Of a DNA stretch of 64,000 nt, positions 4,922 to 62,471 are shown in pieces. Both the position numbers and the translations under genes were made by a program. A model generated the notes under the pieces. It saw only the letters and a list, made by a program, of their open reading frames with translations. It ran no database searches and had not been told where the DNA came from. Origin of the DNA: Bacteroidales bacterium (GTDB lineage Bacteria > Bacteroidota > Bacteroidia > Bacteroidales > UBA932); contig SUYM01000018.1 of the NCBI GenBank assembly GCA_015060455.1, forward strand, positions 1 through 64,000, given 5' to 3'. The stretch's first letter is position 1, and each line of letters starts with the position of its first letter.

Positions 4922-4961
4922 ATCGTATAATTTTTCTCTTTTCTATATGGTTTTCTGTTTT

Positions 4962-9800: not shown

Positions 9801-10043
9801 AGATCCTTCGACTTCGCTGACGCTCCGCTCAGGATGACAGGTGGGAAACGCTGACGCTCCGCTCAGGATGACAGGCGGGAAACGCTGACGCTACGCTCAG
9901 GATGACAGAGGGAAATGCTGACGCTACGCTCAGGATGACAGAAGGGAAATGCTGACGCTACGCTCAGGATGACAGGAGGGAAACGCTGACGCTACGCTCA
10001 GGATGACAGGACGGAAATGCTGACACTACGCTCAGGATGACAG
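9801..10043. repeat. Tandem array of ~33-34-bp units, core GCTGACGCTACGCTCAGGATGACAG (about 7 units)
   Basis: Directly visible; abuts the stop codon of the 10046-11362 gene. Confidence 0.92.
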
Positions 10044-10045
10044 GG

Positions 10046-17250: not shown

Positions 17251-20200
17251 TTAATACTGACTCATATCCGTGATCTCAAACGGCTTGGCAATGGCATTGC
17301 GGGCCGCCTGAAGAGCGATCGGAGCATTTGCATCAGTAACAGGTGTCGTTCCTGTTGCATTATCTGGGAAACGATAGGTGTTACCGTCAAGCTTGACTCC
17401 TGTAAGCGGAGTGATGACGGTCTCAAACACAGTACATGAAGCGCCATAGCGGGCAAGACCAAGATCCATGTGATAGCCGTCACGGGTCAGGTCAAGGGCT
17501 GTGGTTGTACATGATGTCGTACGCAGATTCTGAAGCATTGTTCCTGTAGGGATGATGCCGTCAACGTCACACTCTGCCATAACCTCCTGCGCAAAAGCAG
17601 TGATGACAGGATACATGGCCAACTGCTCAGCCTTTGCCGTAGCCTTGTTCTTTGCCGCAAATTTCTCCGTATGTTGAGCGGCAGTCAGGCTTACTGACGA
17701 ATCGGTATTATAAAATGCCACAGGCCATGTAATCGCGCTTCGGCTGCCGAAACCGATCCTGTCCATGTTGTAATAAGCCTGAGACATGATGTAATATATC
17801 TTTGCATCGCCCTGGCTTTCCTTGATATGGTTGATTACGCCTGTCACATTCGATTTAGCGGTATCATTCCACACCCATGCGGCAGCATTTCCTGTATGCT
17901 CCTGAATGGTCACGACATCCCACTGACGGCTTTCACAGATGTCCTTAAGGCTCTTTCCTGTCACTGTTGTCCAACCTGTAGCACCGGCGTTGCAGGTATA
18001 GGCACTATAGTCCTTAGCCGTTGCCCAGGTGCTGTTATAGGCAGACATCAGACGACCGCCATAGTACATATGCACCATGTTCACGTTCTTGATGCCCGCA
18101 GCAGCAAGCATTCCAGGAAGATGCTTTACAGAGTCATCCGTGAAGGAGTTTCCGATGAAAAGGATATTGATGGCATCGGCTCCGTCGAAGATGATATTGG
18201 TAATTTTTGAAGCATTCGCAGCGGCATAGATACCTATATAATCCATGTAGTTGTCGTTGTTCAGGCTTACCATCTGATAGTTGCCGCCATTATATGTTCC
18301 GATTGTACCTCCGACCACGACATTGTCAACCTTGGCAAACTTGGAGAAATTTGCTGCTATCTGACCGAGGTAACGGCTCGTTGCTGAAGTCTCGTTCAAG
18401 ATATCACCGACAATCATTCCATAATTACCGCCACCGGTAATTTCCGATGAAGCATCAACGTCAGTCGATCCGCTTATCAAGCATACAAGACCGCCGCCCT
18501 GAGCATTACTTCCGCTCTGAGTAAGAACCAGATCACCGTGATTTTCACAATCCCTCATATAACAATAGTCAGACATGAAACAAGTGATCATTCCCGCTCT
18601 GATATTGGTACCGGTATTTGTCTGATTTCCGTAATTCTTACAAGATGACAGAGTGGTCTTCCTCTGCACGCTGCCGGCAATACCGGCTGTTCTTGACACC
18701 TCGGAAGTCATGTCACCATAATTGATACAGTTCGACACAGTATTACCGGTTGCATCATTATGTGTGTAGGCATGACCTATGATTCCGCCGACAATGACAC
18801 CGTTACCACCATTATTGGTGTTCGCGCCCCGCTTTGCGGTCATATCTCCATAGTTCACAAGATCGGCAAGCGTAGTGGACTCTCCGGACATCGAAATCAC
18901 GTAACCGGCAAAAGCAGCCATTGTGGTGCGTTTCTCATTAACTGCATTACCGTTGCAGATCATTGGAACATAGTTCACACAATTCCTGATGGTCGATTTA
19001 CGGCAGAATCCTGCAACTACACCGGCATCAATGACACCATTTCCTTTGAATGTCAGTTCACTGCTGTCTCCAGAAGGCGCTCCCATTACAAGGTTCTCGA
19101 CTGTCGCTCCATTGAGGAAGCCGAACAGACCATAGGTCGTTCCATCCACCGCAGAACTATATGTAGGAGTAAGTTTGATATTGCGGATACTATGACCCAT
19201 ACCGTTGAATTTTCCTGTAAATGCCTTACCTCCTGTCGGAGCATAGTTTGAAACCTTTGCATTTCCGATAGGCGTCCAAGTCTTTCCTGTCATATCGATG
19301 TCATTCAAAAGAACAACCACTCCGTTCTGACAGAACTTCGAGTAATCGCTTCCGGCATTCACAAGCGAAGCCAACTCCATCAGGTCGTCCGCAGTGCGGA
19401 TACCAGGAGCGTCAGGACCGTTGAAGACAAGGTTGGTGATCTTCGCGTCATTGGCATCGGAGCGGATACCGATATAATTTCTATAATTAGAGGTACTAAG
19501 AGTGACCATCTTATAGTTTCCGCCATTGTAAGAGCCAATGCTGCCATCAACAACAACGCCATCCACCTTCGACAACTTTGAGAAATTAGCAGCAATAAGA
19601 CCAAGATAATGCACTGTGGACTCTGAACTTGTCAGAATATCTCCGATGATCATTCCATAATTGCCACCACCGGTGATTTCTGCTGTCGTCGAGTTCATCA
19701 TACAAACCAATCCACCGCCTTGAACTTTATTGACATTGTTTTTCGTAAGCACCAAGTCTCCATGATTCTCACAGTCCTTCAACGCCGTATAATTTGCCAT
19801 TATAGCCGTAATCATTCCGATACGGACATCAGTTCCGGTGTTGACCTGATCACCATAGTTCTTGCAATTTTCCACTATTGTGTACTGATTTGCAGCAGAT
19901 ACGATACCACACGAACGAGCAACAGAAGACTCTATGTTTCCATAATTAACACAATTGCTTATATGATTTCGTGTTGTGCTTATAGTCGTCGTACCATTTG
20001 CAAGACCTGCTATTCCGGCAGCCATCACAGACGCTGCTCCATTCGTTGTATTGCTACCGCCTGCAGCCTTGATTGAGCCATAGTTGACAAGGTTCTCAAG
20101 AGTACAGCCTGCTCCCTGATTTGCATATACAAATCCCGCGAATCCAGCCATTGTGACACGCTGTGCAGCTGTGCTTCCCGTTACATTCATAGGAACATAG

Positions 20201-21531
20201 TTGACACAGTTGCGTATTGTAGAAGACATCATTGCTCCTGCAACCACTCCCACATCAAGACTGTCGGCAGCACTGAATGTCAGTTCACTGGCATCCCCCT
20301 CTGCAGCACCGACCGTAAGGTTCTCTACAGTCGCTCCGTCAAGAATACCGAAAAGGCCATATACATTATTGTCTGCAGTAATCTCCGCAGACATTTTGAG
20401 ATTCAGAATGCTCTTGCCACGGCCATCGAAATATCCTTTGAAAGCCGGCCCAGAATAATGTGATGTATGATTGTCTGTTGCGGTTACCGAGCCATGGAAC
20501 TTACCGTTTCCGATAGGGGTCCAGTTCGTAACTCCAGTCATGTCGATATCGTCAAGAAGCACGATCTTGCCCTCGTCGTTCATATACTCGATAAGGCTTG
20601 AGCCGTTGTTGACTGCCGCAGCGAAGTCAACGAGATCCTGAGCGCAGCCGATACCACCTGAGAAGGCATACATCGCCTTTGCAAGATGCTGTACTGAATA
20701 CCTGCCGTCAGACTCGCTGAATGTGGTGATACCTGACTTATAGATATTCTTTACAAGTTCGCTTCCGTCCTCAAGAGTAAGTGTAACCTTGAGACCCTTG
20801 CTTGAAGTGAAACGTCCGACAGGGAACTTGATCACCTGAGCCACACGTGCATCTGCCTGATCCGGGAAATTGAGAGTGAGGACATTGCCGGTCTGGAGTG
20901 TCTCGAGAGCGAGAGTCGAGGCGTCAACAACACCCGAGCAAGTGATATATCCCTCAAATTCGCTGCCCTCGGCAGGCTCTATCTTGAGGGTCTTCATAGG
21001 AGAAGTCATCTGGCTTCCCGCAGGATCGATACGAAGTTCGATCACTGAGAAGATATTCTCGAAGTGCATGTTTATGACACCATTGTCCAATGTCTCAGCA
21101 TTTGTATATCCGACCAGCGGAGCGCAAGCGGGATTCTTCTGAGCAAGGTCGAAAAACTCGATATCCCTTTCAGCAGCGATACCCACAGTACCGTCCTCCG
21201 CACTCAATGCTTCATAGTACGCCACCAGACCTGTGCCATCATAGTCTGTGATACCGGCAGTACTTGTAAAATAAGTCTGCTTGCCGTCCTCTGAAGGAGT
21301 GCCTGCCACATATTCGTAAGCATCTCCGTTGTAGAGGACTGTAATCCTGTCACCTGCCGTCCAGGTGCTCTTTCCTTCGTTGATGTCAGTCTTTGTCATC
21401 GGAGCACAATCTGCCGAAATGACAAGATACTTCGATACAGGAACCACAGTCGAGCCTTCCGGTTCGATTTCGCGGGTACAGCCCACAAGGGCCGCAGCAA
21501 CCGCCATAAGTGAGAATAAAATCTTTTTCAT
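17251..21531 (-). CDS. Lipoprotein: fimbrillin-like N-domain + two GLUG/NYG-repeat modules + C-terminal DUF4886 (SGNH-like)
   Basis: LVGCTREIEPEG lipobox; TKTDINEGKSTWTAGDRITVLYNG; repeated CVNYGDM / GGGNYGMIVGDI coils; NILFIGNSFTDDSVKHLPGML...RDGYHMDLGLARYG. Confidence 0.85.
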   Translation of the reverse strand: MKKILFSLMAVAAALVGCTREIEPEGSTVVPVSKYLVISADCAPMTKTDINEGKSTWTAGDRITVLYNGDAYEYVAGTPSEDGKQTYFTSTAGITDYDGTGLVAYYEALSAEDGTVGIAAERDIEFFDLAQKNPACAPLVGYTNAETLDNGVINMHFENIFSVIELRIDPAGSQMTSPMKTLKIEPAEGSEFEGYITCSGVVDASTLALETLQTGNVLTLNFPDQADARVAQVIKFPVGRFTSSKGLKVTLTLEDGSELVKNIYKSGITTFSESDGRYSVQHLAKAMYAFSGGIGCAQDLVDFAAAVNNGSSLIEYMNDEGKIVLLDDIDMTGVTNWTPIGNGKFHGSVTATDNHTSHYSGPAFKGYFDGRGKSILNLKMSAEITADNNVYGLFGILDGATVENLTVGAAEGDASELTFSAADSLDVGVVAGAMMSSTIRNCVNYVPMNVTGSTAAQRVTMAGFAGFVYANQGAGCTLENLVNYGSIKAAGGSNTTNGAASVMAAGIAGLANGTTTISTTRNHISNCVNYGNIESSVARSCGIVSAANQYTIVENCKNYGDQVNTGTDVRIGMITAIMANYTALKDCENHGDLVLTKNNVNKVQGGGLVCMMNSTTAEITGGGNYGMIIGDILTSSESTVHYLGLIAANFSKLSKVDGVVVDGSIGSYNGGNYKMVTLSTSNYRNYIGIRSDANDAKITNLVFNGPDAPGIRTADDLMELASLVNAGSDYSKFCQNGVVVLLNDIDMTGKTWTPIGNAKVSNYAPTGGKAFTGKFNGMGHSIRNIKLTPTYSSAVDGTTYGLFGFLNGATVENLVMGAPSGDSSELTFKGNGVIDAGVVAGFCRKSTIRNCVNYVPMICNGNAVNEKRTTMAAFAGYVISMSGESTTLADLVNYGDMTAKRGANTNNGGNGVIVGGIIGHAYTHNDATGNTVSNCINYGDMTSEVSRTAGIAGSVQRKTTLSSCKNYGNQTNTGTNIRAGMITCFMSDYCYMRDCENHGDLVLTQSGSNAQGGGLVCLISGSTDVDASSEITGGGNYGMIVGDILNETSATSRYLGQIAANFSKFAKVDNVVVGGTIGTYNGGNYQMVSLNNDNYMDYIGIYAAANASKITNIIFDGADAINILFIGNSFTDDSVKHLPGMLAAAGIKNVNMVHMYYGGRLMSAYNSTWATAKDYSAYTCNAGATGWTTVTGKSLKDICESRQWDVVTIQEHTGNAAAWVWNDTAKSNVTGVINHIKESQGDAKIYYIMSQAYYNMDRIGFGSRSAITWPVAFYNTDSSVSLTAAQHTEKFAAKNKATAKAEQLAMYPVITAFAQEVMAECDVDGIIPTGTMLQNLRTTSCTTTALDLTRDGYHMDLGLARYGASCTVFETVITPLTGVKLDGNTYRFPDNATGTTPVTDANAPIALQAARNAIAKPFEITDMSQY

Positions 21532-21536
21532 AGCAG

Positions 21537-21659
21537 TTACTCCTTTTCTGTTTCGTCATAAATAAAATCCAGGTCACCGATTCCGTTGACCGAGCCGCAA
21601 AGAATGCCGGCGCTTTCCAATTCTGTCACTGCCAAAGCAGGAGACTCATACTTTTTCAT
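21537..21659 (-). CDS. 40-aa mini-ORF upstream of giant lipoprotein
   Basis: Reverse complement reads MKKYESPALAVTELESAGILCGSVNGIGDLDFIYDETEKE*; stop lies 5 nt before the next start codon; homologous to 53287-53418. Absent from supplied ORF track (below length cutoff). Confidence 0.7.
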   Translation of the reverse strand: MKKYESPALAVTELESAGILCGSVNGIGDLDFIYDETEKE

Positions 21660-26368: not shown

Positions 26369-26513
26369 AGATCCTTCGACTCCACTTCGTTCCGCTCAGG
26401 ATGACAAAAGGTCGCTTCGTTCCGCTCAGGATGACAGTGTGGCACTTCGTTCCGTTCAGGATGACAGTGTGGCACTTCGTTCCGTTCAGGATGATCACAT
26501 TGTCATGTTGAGC
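26369..26513. repeat. Short tandem array, core CACTTCGTTCCGTTCAGGATGACAGTGTGG
   Basis: Four near copies; last two nearly identical. Same GGATGACAG core as the 9801-10043 array. Confidence 0.9.
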
Positions 26514-46532: not shown

Positions 46533-46650
46533 ATGTCTCGACATCGCTCGACATGACATTCCTGTCATTCTGAACGTCGAACTGTCATTCTGAAATCAGA
46601 CTGTCATTCTGAACGTCAGACTGTCATTCTGAACGAAGTGAAGAATCTGA
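46533..46650. repeat. Cluster of ACTGTCATTCTGAACGTCAG repeats
   Basis: Four to five copies of CTGTCATTCTGAA(C) in the 140-bp intergenic region between the NagB-PIG-L gene and nagB. Confidence 0.85.
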
Positions 46651-49068: not shown

Positions 49069-49908
49069 CTACAGACCTTGCAGCCACGGGGTAAGCTGTG
49101 CTTTCAGCGGCTGAAGATACTTCGTTTCGTGGTCACTGTTACCGTGATGCCATCCATGCCTGTCACCGTCAAGCGGCAGATGTACTGCAGAAGCGCCTGC
49201 TACCGTCATGGCATTATAAAACGCCTTGCCGTTGGAAGCCGGAGAAACAACCGTTTCCGATTTTGCATAAGAAATGAATGCCTTAGGGGTATCTGCGGAC
49301 ACCCAGAACTCATTTGAGTACATCATCATCTCCTCATTTGACGGATCCTGCCCCATGAAATTGTTTCTCGATCCGACGTGCGTACCCGTTGACATCGTTA
49401 TGACCGGATAGATAAGTATCTGGAAATCCGGCCGGATGTCTGACGAAAAGTCTGACGTTGTTGCTGCATAGCACGCAAGATGCCCGCCCGCCGAGAATCC
49501 CATCACACCAATCTTTGACCTGTTGACAAGCCACTTGTCCGCCATATCGTTGAATATTCCGAGCGCAGTTTCCATGTCGCCGATAGGTTTGGACGGGTCT
49601 CCTGATGGAAGTGTATATTTCAACACGGCAAAGGCAATTCCCAAATCATTGAAATACGGAGCCCACACTGCGCCCTCATGACCCGCATGAGAAGAGTAGG
49701 AACCACCGGGGCAGGCAATCACTGCCACCCCGATGTTCTTTTCCTCCTCAGGAAGATAGACTTCCATTTCAACGCCATCTTCCGCTTTGGTGTATGAGTA
49801 CTCCAACTCTCTGTTGTACGGTTCTTCCTCCTGCTGCTGAACATTGTCCGGACTGCATGACAGACAGAGCATCATGCAAGTGAGAAAAATCGGATATGCT
49901 TTTTTCAT
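49069..49908 (-). CDS. Alpha/beta hydrolase (BD-FAE/acetylesterase-like) lipoprotein
   Basis: VIACPGGSYSSHAGHEG, IGVMGFSAGGHLACYAAT, HGWHHG; lipobox-like LSCSPD; start at MKKAYPIF. Confidence 0.87.
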   Translation of the reverse strand: MKKAYPIFLTCMMLCLSCSPDNVQQQEEEPYNRELEYSYTKAEDGVEMEVYLPEEEKNIGVAVIACPGGSYSSHAGHEGAVWAPYFNDLGIAFAVLKYTLPSGDPSKPIGDMETALGIFNDMADKWLVNRSKIGVMGFSAGGHLACYAATTSDFSSDIRPDFQILIYPVITMSTGTHVGSRNNFMGQDPSNEEMMMYSNEFWVSADTPKAFISYAKSETVVSPASNGKAFYNAMTVAGASAVHLPLDGDRHGWHHGNSDHETKYLQPLKAQLTPWLQGL

Positions 49909-49910
49909 CT

Positions 49911-52900
49911 TTACAAGTATGATTTTACCTGCTCCCATATCTGATCTGCCATTTCTTTCATTCCGGCTACATTCGGATGGACGCTGTCGTAAGTGCTTGC
50001 CGAGCGATCAGCAAACACCACCTCTGCGTAATGAATATTGTAGTGGTTGCAGACATCACGGATTACCTGCGCATACGCTGAATATTGGCTGTCCATGACG
50101 CAGTCGCCGATGATGCAGAAAATCTTGGCATCAGGATACTTTCCCTCCAGCAGTCTGATGAGTTTGTCGTAAGCCTGAGCGAACTGGTATGTGTCAAGGT
50201 CGTCTGTTGCGATTGTGAAGTCCAGTGTTCCCACAGGAAGATTGAAACTCCACGAGTCGTTTGTTCCGCCGTTGATGAAAATCACGTCAGGGTTGCCCAG
50301 ATCTGCATATCTGTTGAGGAAACCATATCCAGGATAACCGTTTTTAGTGGTATTCTGGACACATGTTGCAGTATGTGATGAGTTAGCCTCAAGCAATGCA
50401 TTGGTCATCTTTCCGTAGATAAGCTGATACCAGTATGTCTGGGTGACACTTGTAAAGTCGGTGTAAGAACTCTTCGGATACTGGTAGTTGCTTGGGAAGA
50501 GGGTGTATCCCTGATAAGTGGTGATCGAGTCGCCTATGAGGGACACGCGTGTCTTTGTTGATGTGGCGGTGCTGCTTGCAATCGGGCATCCGTAGATTAC
50601 AGGATAACCGTTTGTGCCCATAACCCATTCCTCTGCACGTACGTCGAATATCATGGCGGTGTTATACTCGTCTGCTCCCGCGTTGAGTGCATCAAGGAAG
50701 CAAGGGTACGCAGTGCCGGTTGACGGCATCGACACCGCACCTGTGTTCTTCAACTGCTCGTCGGTGAGGGACTGCTCGGCTTTTGTATAAGTAAAGCTGC
50801 CACTTGATGCTCCAGCTTTAAAGCCGTCTAACCAGTATGCGTTCACGATGGTGCCGCTGCTTCCGGTTTCGCCGCTCACACCTCGAAGCCAGCCATAAAT
50901 CGATCCTCGCGAAGAAGCAGTTGCCTCGCCACCACTTAAGAATGCTGATGACGGAGCAGGACAATAGCAGTTGCGGATTGTAATTGTTTGTGCATATCCT
51001 GCTATTCCGGCAATATTGGCTCCTCCGGAAGTTGAAACCTTGGTAGGGAACGATGCACAGTTGACGATTGCCGTATTGGAGAGGCTTGTTGCGCTGAACT
51101 GCCCGGCAATACCACCTACGCCACCGGCAGAGTTGTTATTTGTGAGCTCACCTCCATAATAGATACAATTGGCTATAAGCACATCGGTAGTGTTTACAAA
51201 ACCTGCAATACCGCCTACTCGTCCACCTGATCCTCCCGTATTGGCAACGTTACAGCTTGCACTGCACTTGTTCACGATTCCCTTACCGGTGGCGCATCCT
51301 ATAACACCACCGACTTGACCACTTGAGGTCGATGTGACAGAACCACCTGAGACATTACAGTTCTCCACCTTGGAAGTCTTCGCATCCGTTCCTGACCACA
51401 TATCTCCGAGAATGCCTCCGGCATTGCTTGCAGCAGTCTCCACTGCGACACCTGACGTATTACATTGAGAGATAAGACCACCCTTGTTGTAAACGCCCAC
51501 GATGCCGCCCACATTGGCCGCCGTACCCTTGACCGTACCGCCGGTCACACTGCAACCGGTCACAGTACCGGCCGCCACGATCTGTCCGGTGACTCCACCG
51601 ACACTCTTTGCTCCGCTGACAGACGGATTGGTCAGTGTACACATCTTGACTGTACCGCCGGCAATGTTTCCTACCACACCGCCGACAAGATTTACGCCCT
51701 TTACGGTTGCGGCTACTGTACATGAGGTAATTCCTCCACCTGAAATCAGTCCGGCAATTCCACCTACCTGATTATTTGTTCCGGTGACCGTACCTTCAAC
51801 CGAACATTCCGTCACAAAGCAATTAGCTCCATCCATGCGTCCTGTGATGCCACCGACATTGACATTTCCGGCACTGACTGTTCCTGAATAAGAACATCCC
51901 TTGACTGTTCCGACCTGAATTTTGCCGATGATGCCGCCTACAGCATCACCCGAACTATACACTGAACCATTTGTCACATGGCAGTTCTCGATGAGTGCCG
52001 TAGAGGTGTTCTGGGCACAGCCGGCGATGGTGCCGACATTCCATGTGCTGGCGTTGATTGTCACCTTGTCGAACTTCATGTTCTTGATGTGAGCAGCGCC
52101 GTCGAGATAGCCGAAGAATCCCTGAGCCTTGTTCGAGTTCACGTTTGCAATGACGATATTCTCGATCTTATATCCCTTGCCGTCGTATTTTCCGCAGAAG
52201 AAACTGTATGGCGCGGTCGCGTTGGTGTTTCCGATGCTGCTGAACGTGGCTCCGTCAAAATCGATATTCGCAATCTGCTCATAGTATGCGGTCCTGAACG
52301 GCAGATACTCCTCATCCATGCTGGCAACGTAAGTCGAGAGGGTGTTAAGGTCATCAACGCTTCCTATAAGATAAGGATCCGCCTCCGTGCCTCGACCGCC
52401 GCTGAAATGGCTCGGAACGAAATTGTACAGAGCCCTTGCAATATGTTTTGCAGAGAACTTTCCCTCCGCCTCCTGATATGTCGTGAGTCCGCTCTGCCAT
52501 ACGTTCCTTTCATAGGCAGTCCCGTCTTCAAGAGTCAGGGTGAGTTTAAGTCCGGCACTTGACGAAAATCGTCCAACCGGGATCTTGAGCGTCTGAGCCT
52601 GAGTGGCATCTGTCTCGGCAGGAAGAGTGCGGACAAGGGTGTTTCCTGTGCCGTTTTCTGCCGCCGCAAGCGCCAATGTAGAAGGATCGACAGTGCCTCT
52701 GAAAGCAAGACAGCCCTCAAACTCCGATCCTTCCGCCGGCTCCAAGGTCAACGACTTGATGGGACTTGGCGACGGCTTGCCTGCCGGGTCTATCCTGAGT
52801 TCCAATGTCGAGAATATGTTGTCGAATCTTATGCGGAGCGCTCCGTCCTCCACCTCGCCCGACACCGGTGTTCCCACCAATGGTGCGCAGGCAGAATTGT

Positions 52901-53282
52901 TCTGCGTCTCAGCCTGCCATCCGATGGTCGCCTCCGCCTCGACTCCGACGATTCCCTCTGCCGCGTCTATCGCATTGTAATATGCCGTGAGGGCGCTTCC
53001 GTCATAGTCGGCGATACCGTTTTCACTGACAAAATATACGGCTGCCCCGTCCGAAGACGCCGCATACTCATATACATTACCTTTATAGACAACCTCAATG
53101 ACATCGTCCTTCTCCCATGTGCTGAGTCCCTCATTGATGTCTGTCTTTGTCTGTGCGCAATCCGCCTTGATGACAAGGTACTTGGACGACGGTACAGGCT
53201 TGTCCTGAGGATTTTCCATCTCCTTTGTACAACTTATGACACCGACAACGGCCGCCATAAGCGCAATAAACATTTTCCTCAT
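49911..53282 (-). CDS. Giant lipoprotein: fimbrillin-like N-domain + canonical GLUG repeats + C-terminal SGNH/GDSL hydrolase
   Basis: GVISCTKEMENPQ lipobox; VGGITGRMDGANCFVTECSVEGTVTGTNNQVGGIAG; VSLIGDSITTYQGY...DSVHPNVAGMKEMADQIW; start at MRKMFIALMAAVV. Confidence 0.87.
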   Translation of the reverse strand: MRKMFIALMAAVVGVISCTKEMENPQDKPVPSSKYLVIKADCAQTKTDINEGLSTWEKDDVIEVVYKGNVYEYAASSDGAAVYFVSENGIADYDGSALTAYYNAIDAAEGIVGVEAEATIGWQAETQNNSACAPLVGTPVSGEVEDGALRIRFDNIFSTLELRIDPAGKPSPSPIKSLTLEPAEGSEFEGCLAFRGTVDPSTLALAAAENGTGNTLVRTLPAETDATQAQTLKIPVGRFSSSAGLKLTLTLEDGTAYERNVWQSGLTTYQEAEGKFSAKHIARALYNFVPSHFSGGRGTEADPYLIGSVDDLNTLSTYVASMDEEYLPFRTAYYEQIANIDFDGATFSSIGNTNATAPYSFFCGKYDGKGYKIENIVIANVNSNKAQGFFGYLDGAAHIKNMKFDKVTINASTWNVGTIAGCAQNTSTALIENCHVTNGSVYSSGDAVGGIIGKIQVGTVKGCSYSGTVSAGNVNVGGITGRMDGANCFVTECSVEGTVTGTNNQVGGIAGLISGGGITSCTVAATVKGVNLVGGVVGNIAGGTVKMCTLTNPSVSGAKSVGGVTGQIVAAGTVTGCSVTGGTVKGTAANVGGIVGVYNKGGLISQCNTSGVAVETAASNAGGILGDMWSGTDAKTSKVENCNVSGGSVTSTSSGQVGGVIGCATGKGIVNKCSASCNVANTGGSGGRVGGIAGFVNTTDVLIANCIYYGGELTNNNSAGGVGGIAGQFSATSLSNTAIVNCASFPTKVSTSGGANIAGIAGYAQTITIRNCYCPAPSSAFLSGGEATASSRGSIYGWLRGVSGETGSSGTIVNAYWLDGFKAGASSGSFTYTKAEQSLTDEQLKNTGAVSMPSTGTAYPCFLDALNAGADEYNTAMIFDVRAEEWVMGTNGYPVIYGCPIASSTATSTKTRVSLIGDSITTYQGYTLFPSNYQYPKSSYTDFTSVTQTYWYQLIYGKMTNALLEANSSHTATCVQNTTKNGYPGYGFLNRYADLGNPDVIFINGGTNDSWSFNLPVGTLDFTIATDDLDTYQFAQAYDKLIRLLEGKYPDAKIFCIIGDCVMDSQYSAYAQVIRDVCNHYNIHYAEVVFADRSASTYDSVHPNVAGMKEMADQIWEQVKSYL

Positions 53283-53286
53283 AGTC

Positions 53287-53418
53287 TTATTCCTTAATGG
53301 TTTCGTCAAATTCAAAAAAGATGTCGGTGATATCCGAATCCAGGGATTCGCAGAGCACACCTTCGCTCAACAAGTCCACGCAAGCGATATGGGGACTCAT
53401 GTAATTCTTTGTATCCAT
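53287..53418 (-). CDS. 43-aa mini-ORF upstream of giant lipoprotein
   Basis: Reverse complement reads MDTKNYMSPHIACVDLLSEGVLCESLDSDITDIFFEFDETIKE*; stop lies 4 nt before the next start; homologous to 21537-21659. Confidence 0.7.
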   Translation of the reverse strand: MDTKNYMSPHIACVDLLSEGVLCESLDSDITDIFFEFDETIKE

Positions 53419-53439
53419 GTCTTTATAACTGTTCTTTTT

Positions 53440-54387
53440 TTACCTCAAACCCTCAATATCAAGATATTCATGTACGATTTCAGCGACATCTGTCTGGATG
53501 AAATCCGTCTCTGACTCGATGAATGTCTGAAGAGGGGTGTAATCTCCGCTGCGAAGTTTGGAGTCATAGTCAAGTATGTTCGTGTAGGTCAGGAAGCCTT
53601 CCTCGCGCATGTCTGCCGGGAAGGTGATGTTTGATTTATCCTTAAAGTCAAGACCATACTGAAAAAGAAGCGCGCCGAAATATCTCTTGTAGCCCGTTGC
53701 GGCAGAAACCGAAGATACATACGGGTGAATGATGAAGTTCGGGTCTATTGTAGGATACTCGACCAGTTCGGACTGACCGGAATAGATCATGACCTGATCT
53801 ATCATGCCGCATTCGATGATAAGATTGGCGAGCGTTCCTATCGGAACATTTTTGTTTGCAATGTCGAGGTTGATAAACATCTTACCCTTGCAGAGTTCGA
53901 ACGCCTGACGCAAGGTGGGCACTTTCACACCATTGGAGACCACATTGCCCCTCTTCATGTCATACTGCATAAGTTCCTGATAGGTAAGGCTGGAAACATT
54001 CTTATTTCCGCCGTTTGTGGTCCTGTTGATGGAAGCGTCGTGCATGAGGACAAGTTCTCCGTCTTTTGTCGGACGCACATCCAACTCGACCATATCCACA
54101 ACTCCGGACTCTATGGCAATCTTTATGATTTCCAAAGAGTTCTCCGGCACATTGGCAAGGATGGCATTAAGAGTGTTGGCTCTATGGGCCACGATATAGA
54201 CCTTCTCACGAGGATTTTCGCCGTTCTGCTTTTCTATCGTCTGGTAGAAAAGAGTAAGCAGGTCAGAAGCCCTTCCGGGCTCCTGATCCTGTCCTCCATT
54301 TCCGGTTCCGTCTCCCTGCATTCCTGTACAGCCCAAGGCTATGGATGCGGCAAAGAGAACCGCAAAGAAAAATTTTAAAGCCTTCAT
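53440..54387 (-). CDS. Glycerophosphodiester phosphodiesterase-family lipoprotein
   Basis: YIVAHRANTLNAILANVPENSLEIIKIAIESGVVDMVELDVRPTKDGELVLMHDASINRTTNG; lipobox ALGCTG. Confidence 0.92.
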   Translation of the reverse strand: MKALKFFFAVLFAASIALGCTGMQGDGTGNGGQDQEPGRASDLLTLFYQTIEKQNGENPREKVYIVAHRANTLNAILANVPENSLEIIKIAIESGVVDMVELDVRPTKDGELVLMHDASINRTTNGGNKNVSSLTYQELMQYDMKRGNVVSNGVKVPTLRQAFELCKGKMFINLDIANKNVPIGTLANLIIECGMIDQVMIYSGQSELVEYPTIDPNFIIHPYVSSVSAATGYKRYFGALLFQYGLDFKDKSNITFPADMREEGFLTYTNILDYDSKLRSGDYTPLQTFIESETDFIQTDVAEIVHEYLDIEGLR

Positions 54388-54395
54388 GCCGACTT

Positions 54396-56078
54396 CTACT
54401 TTTCACAGTTAGTGTGACGACGGTTCTGACCCATCATCGGCCAATCTGTGTTGCCCGGAGCAGTACAGCCGCCTACTTCAAGACATACAAGGGCACCGAA
54501 CTCTCTCACCCTGCCCGCATCGTTGTTGGTAAACTGGAGATAAACCCTTCCGTCATCACCGATTACAACAGAACTGTAAACTTTTGCAGGCGAGTCGAAC
54601 GGAATAGTCTCTGCATAACGGGAGTCTGCAAGAACAAGGGCAGCAAGGTCCTTCTTTGCAACAAGTTCACACTTGCCGTCAACGATCTTGACTACATAAT
54701 AGTTACCTGACTCTGTTCCGAAGTGAATGTTGCCGGCAGCATCGATTGCAGGCGCTCCTGAAACCTTCTCCATGATGCGGTATTCTGCCACGAGTGTTCC
54801 AGGGTTGGTTGACGGATTGACAACGATGATACCTCCGTCTTCTTTTCCGTTAGTGTAGTTCAGAGTCGCTACGATGTAGCCCTCGGCAGTAACTGCCACA
54901 CTTCCGTTGTCCATCTCACCTGTTGTACCCGGCACGATATACTCACTCTCTGCCTTCGGATAACCGGCAGGCGCTGCTGCATCCACGGCATATACCCAAG
55001 GAATACCCGTGTCGTTGCTGGTCTGAACGCCGACAACACATGTCTTGCCATTGACTTTGGCAAGAGCGATCGGACCTTCGGCATTATTCTTTCCTTTCAC
55101 CTGATAATATCTCCAGTCCCACTTGACACCGCTGTTGCCAGCACCGTCAATCTTGCTCTGAGCAATACCATGGACGCCATACTGGCCACCGCCCCAGTGG
55201 ATATATCCGTTCTTTGAGATGGTGACACCGGCGCGTGCACCACCCGTAGGACCAGCTGTCCCTTCAGCATCGTTGACAACATAGCCCACACGCTGACCCG
55301 TAGTCTTGTTGACAGCTATGACAGTGCCTGTCGTTCCACAGTTTCCGAAATAGATGTTGGTTGCACCTATACCGCAGACAGAACCAAGCATAGAAGCCGA
55401 AAGTGTTGCACCCGGGGCCGCCCAGAACTCTGTAAACTCCCACTTGATGGTTCCGTCAGGATTGAAGGCATACACCTTCGCCGTGCCATTAGATGATCCC
55501 GCTCCGAGGAATACGGTGCCGTCTGTGTCAATCGAAGGTGTACCTTTTATACCGAGTCCTGTTTCCTTTGTCCAAAGCTGGTTTCCGTTCTTGTCAAATT
55601 TGTAGAGGATACCGGCTTGAGATGTGGCGTAGACACTTCCATCATCTGCAATGGCCGGAGTGGAAATGGCATTGTAGCCCTGAATCTTAGCTGCCCAAAG
55701 GAGATTGACCTGCCCCTGCTCTGCAACTGGCCTTGGGTTCACGATAAGGTTCTTTCTCTTCTCAGCCTTGTTGCCGTCCTTGTCAAGTACGGTAAGTTTT
55801 ACGATGACACCGCCGTTATTGTCAAATGTATATTTCACGGTCTGACCTGAAAGGTTGACAGACGTGCCAAGTTGCCAGTTGAAGGTGTAAGGCGACACGC
55901 CGCCTTCTGCTGTTGCAGTGAATGTAACTTCTTCACCGACAAGAACCTGAGTTGCCGACATTGTGAAATCAGCCTTGACGGCAAGGGACGATCCGCCACC
56001 AGATGTGCCGCCTTCCCCTTCAGCGCAGGCAGTAAACAATGCTGCCGCAGCCATAAGAATAAATGCAAATTTTTTCAT
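54396..56078 (-). CDS. Lipoprotein with PKD domain and PQQ-like beta-propeller
   Basis: ADFTMSATQVLVGEEVTFTATAEGGVSPYTFNWQLG...; DDGSVYATSQAGILYKFDKNGNQLWTKETGLGIKGTPSIDTDGTVFLGAG. Confidence 0.87.
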   Translation of the reverse strand: MKKFAFILMAAAALFTACAEGEGGTSGGGSSLAVKADFTMSATQVLVGEEVTFTATAEGGVSPYTFNWQLGTSVNLSGQTVKYTFDNNGGVIVKLTVLDKDGNKAEKRKNLIVNPRPVAEQGQVNLLWAAKIQGYNAISTPAIADDGSVYATSQAGILYKFDKNGNQLWTKETGLGIKGTPSIDTDGTVFLGAGSSNGTAKVYAFNPDGTIKWEFTEFWAAPGATLSASMLGSVCGIGATNIYFGNCGTTGTVIAVNKTTGQRVGYVVNDAEGTAGPTGGARAGVTISKNGYIHWGGGQYGVHGIAQSKIDGAGNSGVKWDWRYYQVKGKNNAEGPIALAKVNGKTCVVGVQTSNDTGIPWVYAVDAAAPAGYPKAESEYIVPGTTGEMDNGSVAVTAEGYIVATLNYTNGKEDGGIIVVNPSTNPGTLVAEYRIMEKVSGAPAIDAAGNIHFGTESGNYYVVKIVDGKCELVAKKDLAALVLADSRYAETIPFDSPAKVYSSVVIGDDGRVYLQFTNNDAGRVREFGALVCLEVGGCTAPGNTDWPMMGQNRRHTNCEK

Positions 56079-56127
56079 TGTAATTGTGTTTTATTGTGGT
56101 TTGTATTCAAATGTTTTCAGTCAGATT

Positions 56128-57465
56128 CTAATATCCCGGATTCTGAGGATAGACATCCTTGCCGACAAGGTTGATCTCGTCCTGCGGCACAGGCCAAAGC
56201 AGGAGGTAGTTTCCGTTTTCAGGGAACTCCTTATAGAGATCGGTGCGTCCTGTCCTCTTGATGTCAAACCATCTGCGTCCCTCCGCATAGAATTCCCTGT
56301 TGTTCTCGTCAAGTACGAGATTCTGGAATTCGGTCTCGCTCATTGAATCAGGAAGTGTCACCGAAGCGTAGCGGTTCTCCATGAATGTCTTCATGGTGGC
56401 TATACCAGCAGAAGCGCCCTGGGCCTCAGCCTTTGTGAGGTAGGCATCTGCCAGACGGAACAGCACTATCGGAGATGCTGACGGCTCGGGGTTGTCAACA
56501 AACTGCACCCCGTCCTTGAGTCCGTTAGGAAATTTGACGACGCGGGCCTCGACCTGCGTGGCAGCCTTCCTTATATCACCTGAGCCATAGCCGTCGGCGA
56601 ACAACGTGCTCACCAGGTCATCAGCAATGGCATAACTCCATGATCCGTCTGTGTCATTGTACTGCTCATAGATCCGCAGGAAACTGCTTGTACGCTTGTT
56701 GGCGAGGGCAAACACAACCTCCTTGCTTGTGTTTCCGGCAACGAACATCGAAGCATAGTCTGCGCTTGTCTTGCCAAGAACGAAACTGTTGTTTATCACC
56801 TTGTCGGCGTATGTGATGGCATTGGCCTTGTCGCCTCTCCACAGATAAACCTTCGAGAGGAGAGTCCACACTGCCTCGTCCGACGGGCGATGTACATTTG
56901 ACACTGGCTCGAGATATTTCTCCGCCTCAAGCAGGTCAGCAATGATAAGAGACCACACAGCGTCCTCAGTAGCCCTTGGCACCACATCCATTGAAGGTTC
57001 CTTGAGCACGGGAACACCGCCGAAACGTGTCACAAGGCTGTAATAGATGTATGCTCTCATGAAGTAGGCGGTTCCCTTGGCCTGCTTTGTGACCGCATTG
57101 TCCGGATTGGACGAGTTGGCCGACTTCAACAGTTCGTTCACATGCATGAGAGTCTTGAAACCGGACTGCCATCTGTCCTTGGAAGTTGAATTTGACGGAG
57201 ACATGAGAGCATCATGAGCCTCAATAAGTTTTCCGCCCGGTCCTATTCCGAAATTTTCTCCGTGGTAATCACCGTCATACCAGAATGCGACGGCGAAGTT
57301 CTCCATCTTGTTGAGAACACCATTAGTAAGTTTGCTGAGGTCTGATTCGTTCACTGCCTCTGACGAAATCGCGTGCTTAGGACGGATTTCACCCAGTTGC
57401 TTGGCACAGCCCGCAAGCAGGAGCACACAGGCTCCGAACACCAATATTCTTTTCATTGTCATCAT
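56128..57465 (-). CDS. RagB/SusD-family outer-membrane lipoprotein
   Basis: LLAGCAKQLGEIRPKHAIS; NREFYAEGRRWFDIKRTGRTDLYKEFPENGNYLLLWPVPQDEINLVG. Confidence 0.93.
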   Translation of the reverse strand: MMTMKRILVFGACVLLLAGCAKQLGEIRPKHAISSEAVNESDLSKLTNGVLNKMENFAVAFWYDGDYHGENFGIGPGGKLIEAHDALMSPSNSTSKDRWQSGFKTLMHVNELLKSANSSNPDNAVTKQAKGTAYFMRAYIYYSLVTRFGGVPVLKEPSMDVVPRATEDAVWSLIIADLLEAEKYLEPVSNVHRPSDEAVWTLLSKVYLWRGDKANAITYADKVINNSFVLGKTSADYASMFVAGNTSKEVVFALANKRTSSFLRIYEQYNDTDGSWSYAIADDLVSTLFADGYGSGDIRKAATQVEARVVKFPNGLKDGVQFVDNPEPSASPIVLFRLADAYLTKAEAQGASAGIATMKTFMENRYASVTLPDSMSETEFQNLVLDENNREFYAEGRRWFDIKRTGRTDLYKEFPENGNYLLLWPVPQDEINLVGKDVYPQNPGY

Positions 57466-57468
57466 CGA

Positions 57469-60400
57469 TTAAAATTTGAACTGTACTCCGAACAGGAATG
57501 ACCTCATGGTAGGCTGGTAGCCGAAGTCTGTTCCATATTTCGCATGAGCCGGAGAGGCATTCATGGACACCTCCGGATCATATCCCGAATACTTGGTAAA
57601 GGTCAGGGCGTTGTCCACTGTGAAATAGACCCTGATGCCTCCCATCTTTATACGGTCCATCCATTTCTGAGGCAGGTTGTAACCAAGGGTTATGGTCTTT
57701 ACCTTGAAGAACGAAGCACTCTCGAGGAATCGTGTCGAAGTGAGGATATTGTAGTCCCATGCAAAACCTGTATGGGCTCCGGCAAGCAACGGACGCGGAA
57801 CGGTGTTGGAAGTGCCCTCGCCTCTCCAATAATTGAGCGCGGCATATTCGCTGATGTTGAAATACGATGTCACGCTGGCTCCGTCCATAGTCACACTGCC
57901 CGATGAAAGACCGAGATGCTCTGTACCTTCCTGACCGGCACCTCTCCATGCGGCGAATATCTTTCCTCCCACAGAGTACTGGCAGAAGATATTGAGGTCC
58001 AGACCTTTCCATGACATGGTAGAGGTGATGCCTCCGAAGAAGTCAGGGGTCGCCTTTCCGCAGATCTGACGGTCATAGTCGTCGATCATTCCGTCAGGCC
58101 TTCCTTCCGGACCGCTGATGTCCTCATATATCATGTCACCCGCGCGGACACCTTTTGCATAGAGGGTTTCAGGCACATCTTCGTCACGCTGATAGATGCC
58201 TGTCGCCTTCAGCATATACCATGTCGATATAGGCTGACCCACTATCAGGGCGTGCTTGCTTCCTCCATAAAGTTGTGTGTCTGGCTGATCTATGATGTCT
58301 GTGCCATCCAGGAGTTTCACCAGGCGGTTTCTGCCCCATGAGAAGTTTCCGCTCAGATCCCACTTGAAAGCGCCGTCGATGACGCGCCCTCCCACAGTAA
58401 GTTCGACACCCACGTTGTCAATCGAACCTATGTTCGAAGTAAGCTTGGTGTAACCTGTCGTTGCAGGCACCGGCTTGTCATAAAGAAGGTCGTCTGTGCG
58501 GGAATAGAAGCCGTCAAGATTTCCGTACACCCTGCCGGAGAAGAGCTCAAAATCAACTCCCAAGTTATATTTTGTCGATTTTTCCCACTTGATGTTCTGG
58601 GCAGATGATGAAATCGCAAATCCGGAAGCGCCGTCATACGATGCTCCTGCGCCCACAAGCGACATTGCAGCCCAGTTGCTGATGCCTGCCATCGAACCTG
58701 TCTGTCCCACGGAAAGACGCAGTTTGAGTTCGTTGAGGACATCTGTCTTAGGCATGAACTTCTCGTTGGAAATGATCCATGCAAGGGAACCGGCAGGGAA
58801 GAATCCGTAGCGGTTGTTCTTAGGGAAGCGGCTCGATCCGTCAGCACGGAAAGAGACGTTGAGGATATAGCGGTTGTCCCAGTTTGCAGCGCCTCTGAAG
58901 AAATAAGATTCGAGCGCATAGGCATTGTAGCCGATGCTGTTCGCATAAATCTGAGTTCCCGAGGTGATCAGGTTGAGCGATGAGGACGGATAGGCCTCGT
59001 TCGCATAGTTGTCTGACCTTGCACCGAATGTCTCATACTCATATTTCTCGAAAGAGTGTCCCACCATGGCAGAATACATGAGTTTGTCCCACTCGTTGTT
59101 GTAGGAGATGACGTTGTCAATGAGATAACGGAAACTGTTGTCCTTCTGCTGGGTAAGAGCCGACCATCCTTCTTTGTATCCACGGTCGGTGTTGTTCTCC
59201 GTCAGTTTCTTGATGGTCTTGTCAAAGATGCTGTATCCGCTGACTGACGGCGTCCACTTCAAGCCTTTTATCGGAGTGACATCAAACGAGATTGTTCCCT
59301 GCAACTGGGTCTTATTGATGTAGTAGTCCTCTTCAAGAATGGCATTGAGCGGGTTGTGGCGGCATATTCCGTGAGTGGTCATGATGCGCCATGAGCCGTC
59401 CGGATTATATGGTCCGTAGAAAGGTTGCTCCTCACGTGCCGCACGGAGGACCTTGAGAGAGCCATCCGTTTCCTCCACCTTGTTGTATTTGGAGAACGAA
59501 CCCGAAAGGTTGAGGTTGAGGTTGAGCCAGTCCGCAATCTTGTGCGAGAACTTGGCACGACCTGTATATTTCGAGAAATCGGTCTTGATGATGTATCCCT
59601 GCATATATTCGGCTCCGGCAGACACATAGAATGTGGTCTTGTCGTTTCCGCCCTCAATGCTTGCTGTTCCGTTGGCCTTGTGGGCAAATTCGCGCGAGAT
59701 GCATGCAAGCCAGTCGAAGTCCGGCAGAGGCTGTCCATTTTCAAGGGCGGTCTTTACATGAGCAGGCAGCGCGAGTTCCTTGATGTCGTTCTTCTGCACG
59801 TTGTAGTTGTCGATTGCAGTCTGCATGACATCGATCCACTGCTCTGTGTTGGCCATCTTGATGTCCTTTGCAACCTGAGCAAAGCCATACTGTCCTGACA
59901 CGTTCACCTTGGTCTTGCCGCTCTTTCCGCTCTTGGTCGTGATGAGAATCACACCTGCATTGGCGCGGGAACCGTAAATCGCAGTCGCAGAAGCATCTTT
60001 GAGCACTTCCATGCTTTCGATGTCGGCAGCATTGATGTTAGGGTAAGACTCCGCCGGAATGCCATCCACCACGTACAGAGGAGATGAGTTTCCGGAAATG
60101 GAACTTACGCCTCGAACGACTACCATCGGGGTAGAACCCGGGATACCCGACGAACTTGTAATGGAAACACCTGTCACGCGGCCCTGAAGAGCCTTCATCG
60201 GGTCAAGTTCGGCACCTCTGTCGATACTTTCCATCTTTACGGAAGCGATGGACGAACTTACGAGTTTCTTCGATGCGACTCCGTAACCCACAACTATCGC
60301 ATCTTCAAGAAGTTCCGCATCCACAGCCAGATCGACATCGATGGTCGCGTTTCCGGCAACGGCCACTTCCGAGTCCTTGTATCCGATATAGGAAATCACA

Positions 60401-60888
60401 AGGGCGGCATTTGAAGGCACGGTGATCTCATAGTCTCCGTCAAGTCCGGTGACAACACCGTTCTGGTTGTCGCCTTTCTGGAACACGGCTGCTCCTATGA
60501 CAGGCAGACCTGCCTCGTCCTTCACGATACCCTTGACCGTGATGTTCTTGACCGGTTCTGAAGGCATAGCCTTTGCAACCACGATATGCTGGCCTTTGAT
60601 GCTGATGTCCGCATCCTGCCCGGCAAATATCGCAGCGACCGCTTCCTTCACGTCTTTATCTCTCAAATCTACGGATATGATTCTCGACATATCCAGTTCT
60701 GTTGATTTGACGGCAACCGAATATCCGAATTTCTTTTGAAGTTCCAGCACTGCCGTCTGGACCGTCACGTCCTTGAGTCTGAGATTTATGCTTTGAGCAG
60801 ATACTCCCAAACTGAAACCGACAACTGCACAGGCAGTCAGCAGCAGTCTTGACGCAACAGAAGACAAACTCTTTAGGGTTAGTTTCAT
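57469..60888 (-). CDS. SusC/RagA-family TonB-dependent transporter with N-terminal STN domain
   Basis: INLRLKDVTVQTAVLELQKKFGYSVAVKSTELDMSRIISVDLRDKDVKEAVAAIFAGQDADISIKGQHIVV; plug VVVRGVSSISGNSSPLYVVDGIP. Confidence 0.96.
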   Translation of the reverse strand: MKLTLKSLSSVASRLLLTACAVVGFSLGVSAQSINLRLKDVTVQTAVLELQKKFGYSVAVKSTELDMSRIISVDLRDKDVKEAVAAIFAGQDADISIKGQHIVVAKAMPSEPVKNITVKGIVKDEAGLPVIGAAVFQKGDNQNGVVTGLDGDYEITVPSNAALVISYIGYKDSEVAVAGNATIDVDLAVDAELLEDAIVVGYGVASKKLVSSSIASVKMESIDRGAELDPMKALQGRVTGVSITSSSGIPGSTPMVVVRGVSSISGNSSPLYVVDGIPAESYPNINAADIESMEVLKDASATAIYGSRANAGVILITTKSGKSGKTKVNVSGQYGFAQVAKDIKMANTEQWIDVMQTAIDNYNVQKNDIKELALPAHVKTALENGQPLPDFDWLACISREFAHKANGTASIEGGNDKTTFYVSAGAEYMQGYIIKTDFSKYTGRAKFSHKIADWLNLNLNLSGSFSKYNKVEETDGSLKVLRAAREEQPFYGPYNPDGSWRIMTTHGICRHNPLNAILEEDYYINKTQLQGTISFDVTPIKGLKWTPSVSGYSIFDKTIKKLTENNTDRGYKEGWSALTQQKDNSFRYLIDNVISYNNEWDKLMYSAMVGHSFEKYEYETFGARSDNYANEAYPSSSLNLITSGTQIYANSIGYNAYALESYFFRGAANWDNRYILNVSFRADGSSRFPKNNRYGFFPAGSLAWIISNEKFMPKTDVLNELKLRLSVGQTGSMAGISNWAAMSLVGAGASYDGASGFAISSSAQNIKWEKSTKYNLGVDFELFSGRVYGNLDGFYSRTDDLLYDKPVPATTGYTKLTSNIGSIDNVGVELTVGGRVIDGAFKWDLSGNFSWGRNRLVKLLDGTDIIDQPDTQLYGGSKHALIVGQPISTWYMLKATGIYQRDEDVPETLYAKGVRAGDMIYEDISGPEGRPDGMIDDYDRQICGKATPDFFGGITSTMSWKGLDLNIFCQYSVGGKIFAAWRGAGQEGTEHLGLSSGSVTMDGASVTSYFNISEYAALNYWRGEGTSNTVPRPLLAGAHTGFAWDYNILTSTRFLESASFFKVKTITLGYNLPQKWMDRIKMGGIRVYFTVDNALTFTKYSGYDPEVSMNASPAHAKYGTDFGYQPTMRSFLFGVQFKF

Positions 60889-60907
60889 AATATCTGGGTT
60901 ATTTTGA

Positions 60908-61897
60908 TTATTGATTGTTCCGTGAAATGTTTATAATCTTTCCACTACGGGTTATCTTCATATAATTCTGTGCATTCAGCACACTCAAGATCTCATCCAC
61001 CGTTTCATTGTTGATGAACGAGGCGAAATAGCGCTCATTCATGATATGGGTATCATCTATATGGATAATCACTCCGAAATGTCTTTCAAGGCATGCCGCT
61101 ATGTCTCCGAAACGCTGATTGACAAACTGAAATCCCCCGTTTTCAAGGATGTCCTTGTAATAGCCGGCCGCAAAGTTCTTACGGATGAAATTGCCGGTTG
61201 ACTTGTCATAGCAGACAATGTCTCCGGGGCGCATCTTCACCTCCCTGTTGTCGGACTTGTTGAATAATTGCACAGAGCCCTCGACAAGAGCGATCTCCGT
61301 CTCCGAGTCTCCTTCGTAAGAGTTGAGCTGAAATTCTGTCCCCAACACCTTGATGTCTAAACATCCCGTTGACACCACAAACGGCTTCTCGGCATCTGAC
61401 TTGATGTCCGCATACACAGCCCCCATGACAAAGACCTTCCGTTCGTTCCCGTTAAAGGCTGAAGGATAGATTAGTTTTGTAGATGGTCCCAGAGTCATGT
61501 CCGAACCATCCGGGAGCATTATTTCCATCTTCTGCCCCGCAGTTGTATTTGCCTCAAGCCATTCCACATCCGCAGATCTGCCGCCGAGATAAAACATCAT
61601 GGCGGAGACAGGCAAAAGCAAAATTGCAGCACTCCTTTCTACGCCTCTGAGCACCCGGAGAAAGCCCTCACGACGACGTTTCCTATGATATTCCCTTATC
61701 CTCGACTTAAACACAGAATAGCCCTGCGAAGAACTCACCGGGTCAAAATACTCAGTCCTTTCAAGCAATTCCAGCATCATACCGTCAAACTCCGGAGAAT
61801 CGCCATTCTGTAGGATCCACTCCTCTATTTCCTCTGGAGCGGCACCCTCATTATTATACCTGCTTTGCAGCCATTGTCTGATTCTATCTTCTGACAT
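60908..61897 (-). CDS. FecR-family anti-sigma factor
   Basis: LEANTTAGQKMEIMLPDGSDMTLGPSTKLIYPSAFNGNERKVFVMGAVYADIKSDAEKPFVVSTGCLDIKVLGTEFQLNSY. Confidence 0.95.
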   Translation of the reverse strand: MSEDRIRQWLQSRYNNEGAAPEEIEEWILQNGDSPEFDGMMLELLERTEYFDPVSSSQGYSVFKSRIREYHRKRRREGFLRVLRGVERSAAILLLPVSAMMFYLGGRSADVEWLEANTTAGQKMEIMLPDGSDMTLGPSTKLIYPSAFNGNERKVFVMGAVYADIKSDAEKPFVVSTGCLDIKVLGTEFQLNSYEGDSETEIALVEGSVQLFNKSDNREVKMRPGDIVCYDKSTGNFIRKNFAAGYYKDILENGGFQFVNQRFGDIAACLERHFGVIIHIDDTHIMNERYFASFINNETVDEILSVLNAQNYMKITRSGKIINISRNNQ

Positions 61898-61931
61898 CTT
61901 TCTACTATGATTTTTCTAAACACTAACAGTA

Positions 61932-62471
61932 TCACACACCCATATTATTCATAAATTCCTTTCTCAAACTGGCCAAAGCCAGATTGATGTGCCGGTCCAC
62001 AGTTCTTACAGACAAACCGAGCGTCAGGGCAATCTCCTTATTGCTCATTCCTCGATAACGGCTCAACATGAACACCTTACGCCGCTGCTCAGGCATGGCT
62101 GCAATAAAACATCTTATCCGCTCGTCCAACTCTCGGAACAGAAAGGTTTCGTCTGTTATTGATGGGGACGTATGGTCTGAGATTATCAGACGTTCCACCT
62201 GGACGTATGCCCGCCTATCTCTGATGTGGTTAAGAACCTCGTGCTTGGTCAGCACATATATGTAGTTGTGGATAGACTGGTCCGGATGGAGATTCTTTCT
62301 GTTTATCCAGACCTTCATGAAGACATTCTGAACTATGTCTTCAGCATTGTGAGAATCCTTGATAAGATTACGGACGAAGTTGTAGAAACGGACATAGTAC
62401 TGCTGGAAGAGGATCTCGAAACTGAGCGGATCCCCTTCGCGAAGCATTTCTATGAGCTGATGTTCGTCCAT
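61932..62471 (-). CDS. ECF-type RNA polymerase sigma factor
   Basis: FEILFQQYYVRFYNFVRNLIKDSHNAEDIVQNVFMKVWINR; MPEQRRKVFMLSRYRGMSNKEIALTLGLSVRTVDRHINLAL. Confidence 0.96.
   Translation of the reverse strand: MDEHQLIEMLREGDPLSFEILFQQYYVRFYNFVRNLIKDSHNAEDIVQNVFMKVWINRKNLHPDQSIHNYIYVLTKHEVLNHIRDRRAYVQVERLIISDHTSPSITDETFLFRELDERIRCFIAAMPEQRRKVFMLSRYRGMSNKEIALTLGLSVRTVDRHINLALASLRKEFMNNMGV

Follow-up and report, generated by a model that had tools for sequence, protein, structure and literature searches.

Small YxxP/CxS proteins encoded before fimbrillin-like lipoprotein genes in Bacteroidales are candidate precursors of an LPP-like processing system

Introduction

Linear polyphosphorylated peptides (LPPs) are a RiPP family reported as restricted to Bacillota, with a gene set comprising a PqqD-type RRE, an archaeal-type S26 protease, an HprK-like kinase, an NTP transferase and an MsbA-like exporter, and with precursors that carry the leader consensus YxxPxVLxHQxIxFETxxS (PMC13381572). 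The YxxP element is a documented binding motif of the discrete RREs of lasso, PQQ and LPP systems (PMC13381572). Lasso peptides with a discrete RRE of the B1 type (e.g. TfuB1, TbiB1, paeninodin) are comparable to the system described here in that they likewise combine a YxxPxPhi leader with a homologous RRE. A different point of reference is provided by the operons of type V fimbriae (FimA/Mfa1 and the tip or anchor proteins Mfa2 and Mfa3), with which the lipoproteins considered below share a fimbrillin-like N-terminal sequence type; a structural model of one of these lipoproteins weakly resembles Bacteroides adhesins and Mfa3 in fold. We know of no YxxP mini-protein in type V fimbriae operons and found none in the literature searched, which also yielded no fimbrillin-associated small protein and no LPP-like RiPP of Bacteroidota.

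Here we describe a large and previously unannotated family of small proteins, the mini-ORFs, two of which are encoded in the window (the whole 64,000-nucleotide stretch of Bacteroidales DNA that was analysed). We propose that the mini-ORFs are probably dispersed precursors handled by a RiPP-like processing system that is a close relative of the LPP systems of Bacillota. LPP precursors are recognised by a length of 35-200 aa, a conserved leader and a variable C-terminus, and the mini-ORF products are proteins of this kind, being short, with an N-terminal YxxP leader and highly variable C-termini. Moreover, an operon found in the genus of the window, which encodes PqqD, HprK-like, S26, in some cases NTP_transf_5, and ABC transporter proteins, corresponds to the LPP gene set. 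However, the leaders have only YxxP in common, the mini-ORF leader continuing with E-G-h-h-C-x-S instead of HQxIxFETxxS, and because of this departure from the LPP consensus we call the system LPP-like rather than LPP. It differs further in its Bacteroidales host and in its many dispersed precursors per genome, each before a fimbrillin-like lipoprotein gene. If our proposal is correct, LPP-type RiPPs, reported so far in Bacillota only, extend to a second phylum, and the precursors of a RiPP system can lie scattered over the genome, each linked to one surface lipoprotein.

Results

Two mini-ORFs in the window

Mini-ORF 2 is located at positions 53287..53418 on the minus strand and encodes a YxxP/CxS small protein of 43 aa (MDTKNYMSPHIACVDLLSEGVLCESLDSDITDIFFEFDETIKE). 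A first-pass annotation had reported this peptide, and translation of the minus strand confirms it, the plus-strand translation of 53287-53418 being unrelated to the mini-ORF peptide. Its proposed leader (53344..53418, minus strand) extends from M1 to S25 and contains Y6xxP9 and, 13 residues on, C23xS25, followed by a proposed core (53290..53343, minus strand) that consists of the hypervariable acidic tail, residues 26-43. Upstream lies a GDPD-family lipoprotein gene (53440..54387, minus strand), the stop codon of which is 21 nt from mini-ORF 2, and mini-ORF 2 is an internal operon cistron. On the other side, a gap of 4 nt, as originally annotated, separates the mini-ORF 2 stop from the ATG of its partner gene (49911..53282, minus strand). 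This gene encodes a lipoprotein of 1,123 aa, and not of 1,120 aa as first given, with a fimbrillin-like N-terminal domain, GLUG repeats and a GDSL/SGNH lipase domain, and is followed by an alpha/beta hydrolase gene (BD-FAE/Abhydrolase_3; 49069..49938, minus strand). The operon-like run leading into mini-ORF 2 and its partner gene (49069-62471) includes genes for an ECF sigma factor, FecR, SusC, SusD, a PKD/beta-propeller lipoprotein and GDPD.

The second family member in the window, mini-ORF 1 (copy 1; 21537..21659, minus strand), encodes 40 aa (MKKYESPALAVTELESAGILCGSVNGIGDLDFIYDETEKE) and ends 5 nt before the gene of a 1,426-aa fimbrillin-like lipoprotein with DUF4886 (17251..21531, minus strand; 21531->17251). 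The two copies share 48% identity (BLASTP, E 2e-10), and their Smith-Waterman score of 81 lies far above 5,000 shuffles (mean 19.7, sd 4.0, max 48). A profile built solely from other genomes recovers copy 1 with 33.2 bits (E 1e-9) and copy 2 with 31.2 bits (E 4.6e-9), with a runner-up among the 692 small ORFs of the window at 9.0 bits (E 0.04). The earlier claim that the two copies belong to one family was thus borne out: the genome encodes about 27 members, and the outcome named beforehand as a refutation, a similarity no greater than that of shuffled sequences in a profile comparison, did not occur, the top score of this profile in 10,000 shuffles being 12.8 bits, as against 31-33 bits for the two copies.

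Family size, spread and genomic context

The window genome contains 22 mini-ORF sites when searched with a profile of both copies and 27 at E<=1e-3 with an improved profile; except for a few of the weakest, each site holds an ORF of about 40-55 codons that is immediately followed by a lipoprotein gene. Among 200 congeneric genomes, 153 encode at least one mini-ORF. Scanning 51 members against Pfam and NCBIfam revealed no known family, and a plasmid similarity search gave no matches. The start of DUF5972 (PF19397) resembles the first ten residues of mini-ORF 1 below threshold, and an assignment to this family was rejected (mini-ORF 1, E 0.27 and 11.3 bits against a cut-off of 22.6; one of the 51 members matches); the genome search for DUF5972 found no match.

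Genomic context was assessed in 100 members from loci of the genus, 97 of which have a downstream ORF. This ORF begins with a lipoprotein-type signal in 92 of the 97 and with an apparent ordinary signal sequence in two more. The distance from the mini-ORF stop to the next gene start ranges from -23 to +39 nt (median 12), with frequent overlaps. A promoter-like TAnnTTTG element occurs within 200 nt upstream of 48 of the 100 members, compared with 7 of 97 coding control windows, and is absent from the near upstream region of either window copy, both being internal operon cistrons.

At the order level, matches at E<=0.01 occur in 14 of 294 genomes; counted among these 14 are the window's own genome, another member of the genus and a few spurious matches. 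True members outside the genus are more distant, with the pattern YxxP...IAxS, and many of them again precede fimbrillin-like lipoprotein genes.

Several members depart from the common arrangement. Four distant YxxP...AxS or CxS proteins (L131, L132, L133 and L135, in genomes G306 and G475) are not directly followed by a gene, and a LWGDDED/LWSDDE-like C-terminus is common to three of them; the four constitute a solo branch of the superfamily. A subfamily with DQYHxGGGGxYGxGDxNDNxxxF tails (L083:3618-3866, minus strand; L085:3846-4040, plus strand; L103:580-747, plus strand) occurs near GLUG-GDSL lipoproteins related to the mini-ORF 2 partner. One mini-ORF with the very short tail SGQWGLID (L276 / L194, G113:C2:597241) is followed by more than 1 kb with no downstream gene, and a convincing one in G024 (L277:5477-5620, minus strand; E 2e-13) directly precedes the gene of an MlaE-like permease, not of a lipoprotein.

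Conserved leader and hypervariable tail

Family members are about 34-62 aa long and share a leader of fixed geometry. The gap between P and C is exactly 13 residues in all 99 genus members matching YxxP..CxS (99/99), the C is kept in 144 of 145 extracted leader blocks, and block positions 13-17 read E-G-V/I-L/I-C. Outside the block, both the 1-22 residues before Y and the 7-28 residues after CxS are freely variable. Random pairs are 47% identical in the leader block and 20% identical in the tail, compared with 17% for shuffled tails. Gly, Asp, Glu and Asn are abundant in the tails, and the peptide ends in Trp or Phe in nearly half of the members. Independent close pairs give a pooled pN/pS of 0.35, which indicates from sequence comparison that the peptide itself is under purifying selection.

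Two alternative readings of these motifs were rejected. The GVLC segment is not a lipobox, as a hydrophobic signal stretch is missing and position -1 holds Leu or Ile, and a lasso core was dismissed by eye given tails that lack a consistent ring-forming acidic residue.

Partner lipoproteins

The N-terminal parts of the partners of mini-ORF 1 and mini-ORF 2 are homologous, and across the family the C-terminal domains of the partners differ widely; common to them are a lipoprotein signal and a fimbrillin-like N-terminal domain. The first-pass annotation had linked the mini-ORFs to the fimbrillin/GLUG part of the downstream protein rather than to one enzyme type. The very different C-terminal domains agree with the independence from enzyme type, and the fimbrillin-like half of the link stands. 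The GLUG half does not, since most partners have no GLUG match.

Pfam fimbrillin families match neither the window partners nor ten other partners. A model of the mini-ORF 2 partner (pLDDT 53, low confidence) is all-beta; Bacteroidales adhesins and Mfa3 are among its top PDB matches, none of which reaches E<=0.001. The label fimbrillin-like thus rests on the mutual similarity of the partners and on this low-confidence model.

The closest relative found of the mini-ORF 2 partner (53% identity; L079, in a MAG from water-buffalo colon) has no mini-ORF in front, and a neighbour similar to the alpha/beta hydrolase at 49069..49938 is retained beside it. Likewise, two fimbrillin-like lipoprotein genes of the window (26342->21696 and 28696->26618) have no mini-ORF in front. 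These three cases show that the lipoprotein gene can do without a mini-ORF. The window also contains apparently intergenic tandem repeat arrays at 4949-5148, 9815-10044, 26383-26494 and 46562-46635 (periods 51/102, 34/101, 30 and 20), of which the array at 26383 is directly upstream of a fimbrillin-like lipoprotein gene that has no mini-ORF.

An RRE/kinase/S26/ABC machinery that co-occurs with mini-ORFs

A standalone PqqD protein (PF05402) is encoded in 171 of the 200 genus genomes. In each of the 19 genus loci inspected (19/19) it is adjoined by kinase-like and S26-like peptidase genes, and in 18 of the 19 by an ABC exporter; no mini-ORF was found within about 5 kb of PqqD in these 19 loci. 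The RRE profile matches the solved lasso RREs 9x90, TbiB1 and TfuB1, and an Asn and an Asp that we aligned with the peptide-contacting residues N33 and D70 of LppB are kept in at least 90% of sequences. The S26 peptidase has conserved Ser and His residues, and its profile matches SEC11A. We call the kinase HprK-like by inference from a P-loop motif and weak similarity to PEP-carboxykinase. NTP_transf_5 forms part of the machinery in some genomes. In the window genome the RRE is encoded on contig C17 (PF05402, E 4e-12), apart from the S26 peptidase, kinase and exporter genes, which lie side by side on C42 with no NTP_transf_5 near this cluster.

Across the 200 genus genomes, 142 have both mini-ORF and PqqD, 11 only mini-ORFs, 29 only PqqD and 18 neither (odds ratio 8, Fisher p=1.3e-6), and a hand tally of the subset with at least 90% completeness gives 53, 1, 18 and 8 (p=4e-4), p-values that are optimistic since the genomes are phylogenetically related. 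Most of the 11 mini-positive genomes with no PqqD match are incomplete. The fimbrillin family PF13149 was associated with neither mini-ORF nor PqqD in the 200 genus genomes. The kinase is absent from all 12 tested genomes (12/12) that have neither mini-ORF nor PqqD and present in five of six tested mini-rich genomes. At the order level, PqqD occurs in 10 of 11 genomes with convincing mini-ORFs versus 11 of 20 others (hand-tallied); this supports the association weakly, because detection of mini-ORFs is insensitive there.

Physical linkage is seen in three different families, all other than that of the window. L300 encodes on one strand a mini-ORF, a lipoprotein, kinase, S26 peptidase and RRE, and then the ABC transporter; this compact operon could be expressed as a unit for a direct test. 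Within about 12 kb, L301 contains an RRE, NTP transferase, kinase, capsule-export-like genes, mini-ORF, fimbrillin-like lipoprotein, S26 peptidase and ABC transporter. In L307, the ABC transporter, RRE and kinase genes are preceded by a mini-ORF with a weak score (E 0.009) and a lipoprotein gene. The mini-ORFs of L300 and L301 came from the genome search, and that of L307 from inspecting the cluster.

Discussion

Taken as precursors, the mini-ORF products would be handled in trans. Residues 1-25 of mini-ORF 2 would form the leader, with the core after S25, and YxxP would dock on the discrete PqqD-type RRE. The conserved E-G-h-h-C-x-S block could be the region read by modifying or cleaving enzymes. 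C-x-S conforms to the preference of signal-peptidase-type enzymes for small residues at -3 and -1, and on this basis we guess that cleavage may take place after S25, where the archaeal-type S26 peptidase would cut near CxS and free the hypervariable acidic tail. The tail would be modified by the HprK-like kinase (in some genomes also by the NTP_transf_5 enzyme) and exported by the MsbA-like ABC transporter. In the genus, one machinery set per genome may serve 1-29 scattered precursors, each encoded immediately upstream of a fimbrillin-like surface lipoprotein with which it probably acts. The mini-ORFs may then be the missing substrates of the PqqD/HprK/S26/ABC operons, which are widespread in the genus and precursor-less there, and ignored ORFs of 40-60 codons, up to 29 per genome, become testable candidate substrates.

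Against the precursor reading, the leader departs from the LPP consensus outside YxxP, the proposed precursors are unlinked to the machinery in the window's genus, the RRE gene of the window genome lies apart from those of the kinase, peptidase and exporter, 11 mini-positive genomes (most of them incomplete) give no PqqD match and G048 no kinase match, and the adjacency of the mini-ORFs to lipoprotein genes (92/97) is no known RiPP feature. Such adjacency is what would be expected if the mini-protein were a cytosolic or periplasmic assembly partner of the lipoprotein, chaperone- or pilotin-like, which docks through a motif shared by the family and carries a variable tail specific to its lipoprotein; the two further members before an apparent ordinary signal sequence agree with this, as does the tendency of tail similarity, and not leader similarity, to follow lipoprotein similarity (Mantel, 0 of 400 permutations in the full set). 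However, the tail signal is lost on hard thinning of the homologous partners (154/400), the closest lipoprotein relative, in L079, and two other lipoproteins of the window do without a mini-ORF, and the co-occurrence with PqqD, HprK, S26 and ABC genes would go unexplained. We regard such an assembly role as distinctly improbable, and the evidence points more to a substrate of the trans-acting RRE, kinase, peptidase and exporter than to a display helper for the lipoprotein.

The close spacing of mini-ORF and downstream gene (median 12 nt, range -23 to +39, with frequent overlap) and the TAnnTTTG element within 200 nt upstream (48/100 versus 7/97 controls) could alternatively be features of a cis-acting leader cistron, a translational coupler or nascent-chain sensor that tunes the downstream lipoprotein, the peptide acting on the ribosome or not at all; the Y..P-(13)-C.S spacing would fit the exit tunnel. 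Yet the presence of mini-ORFs tracks a trans-encoded RRE system that a cis leader would not need, the mini-ORF-lipoprotein pair lies inside an RRE cluster in three families, distant homologues have no gene behind them, and both window copies are internal operon cistrons with no nearby promoter element, which together make a cis-acting role unlikely. That the ORF is spurious, its resemblance to copy 1 arising by chance or from residual nucleotide homology, might be suspected from its very short length and from the paralogy of the downstream genes, along with which upstream homology could have been inherited. This is hardly credible in view of the independent profile match (E 5e-9, with shuffles far lower), the family-wide pN/pS of 0.35 and residues that are invariant across highly diverged members.

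Returning to the precursor reading, a tentative extension, possible but doubtful at present, is that one machinery matures dozens of hypervariable peptides, each with a cognate lipoprotein, and that the matched pairs are displayed, the tail serving as ligand, cap or specificity tag. Since the covariation of tail and lipoprotein vanishes after strong thinning of related lipoproteins, we treat peptide-lipoprotein pairing as a hypothesis.

Relative to lasso peptide systems, the inspected neighbourhoods of the genus machinery contain no macrolactam synthetase and no B2 peptidase, an Asn-synthase-like gene in L237 excepted. There (G013:C1:488357), a PqqD-type RRE gene lies beside asparagine-synthase-like and sulfotransferase-like genes in a lasso-like arrangement, and the genome, G013, has no mini-ORF match.

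The machinery also varies in individual genomes. G048 encodes 29 mini-ORFs and an isolated RRE (L309) and has no kinase match, which could reflect either an incomplete assembly or a different machinery. In G112, which has one mini-ORF and no PqqD match, the kinase gene is apparently split by a 530-aa lipoprotein ORF (L274:4668-7453), and this combination would fit decay of the system.
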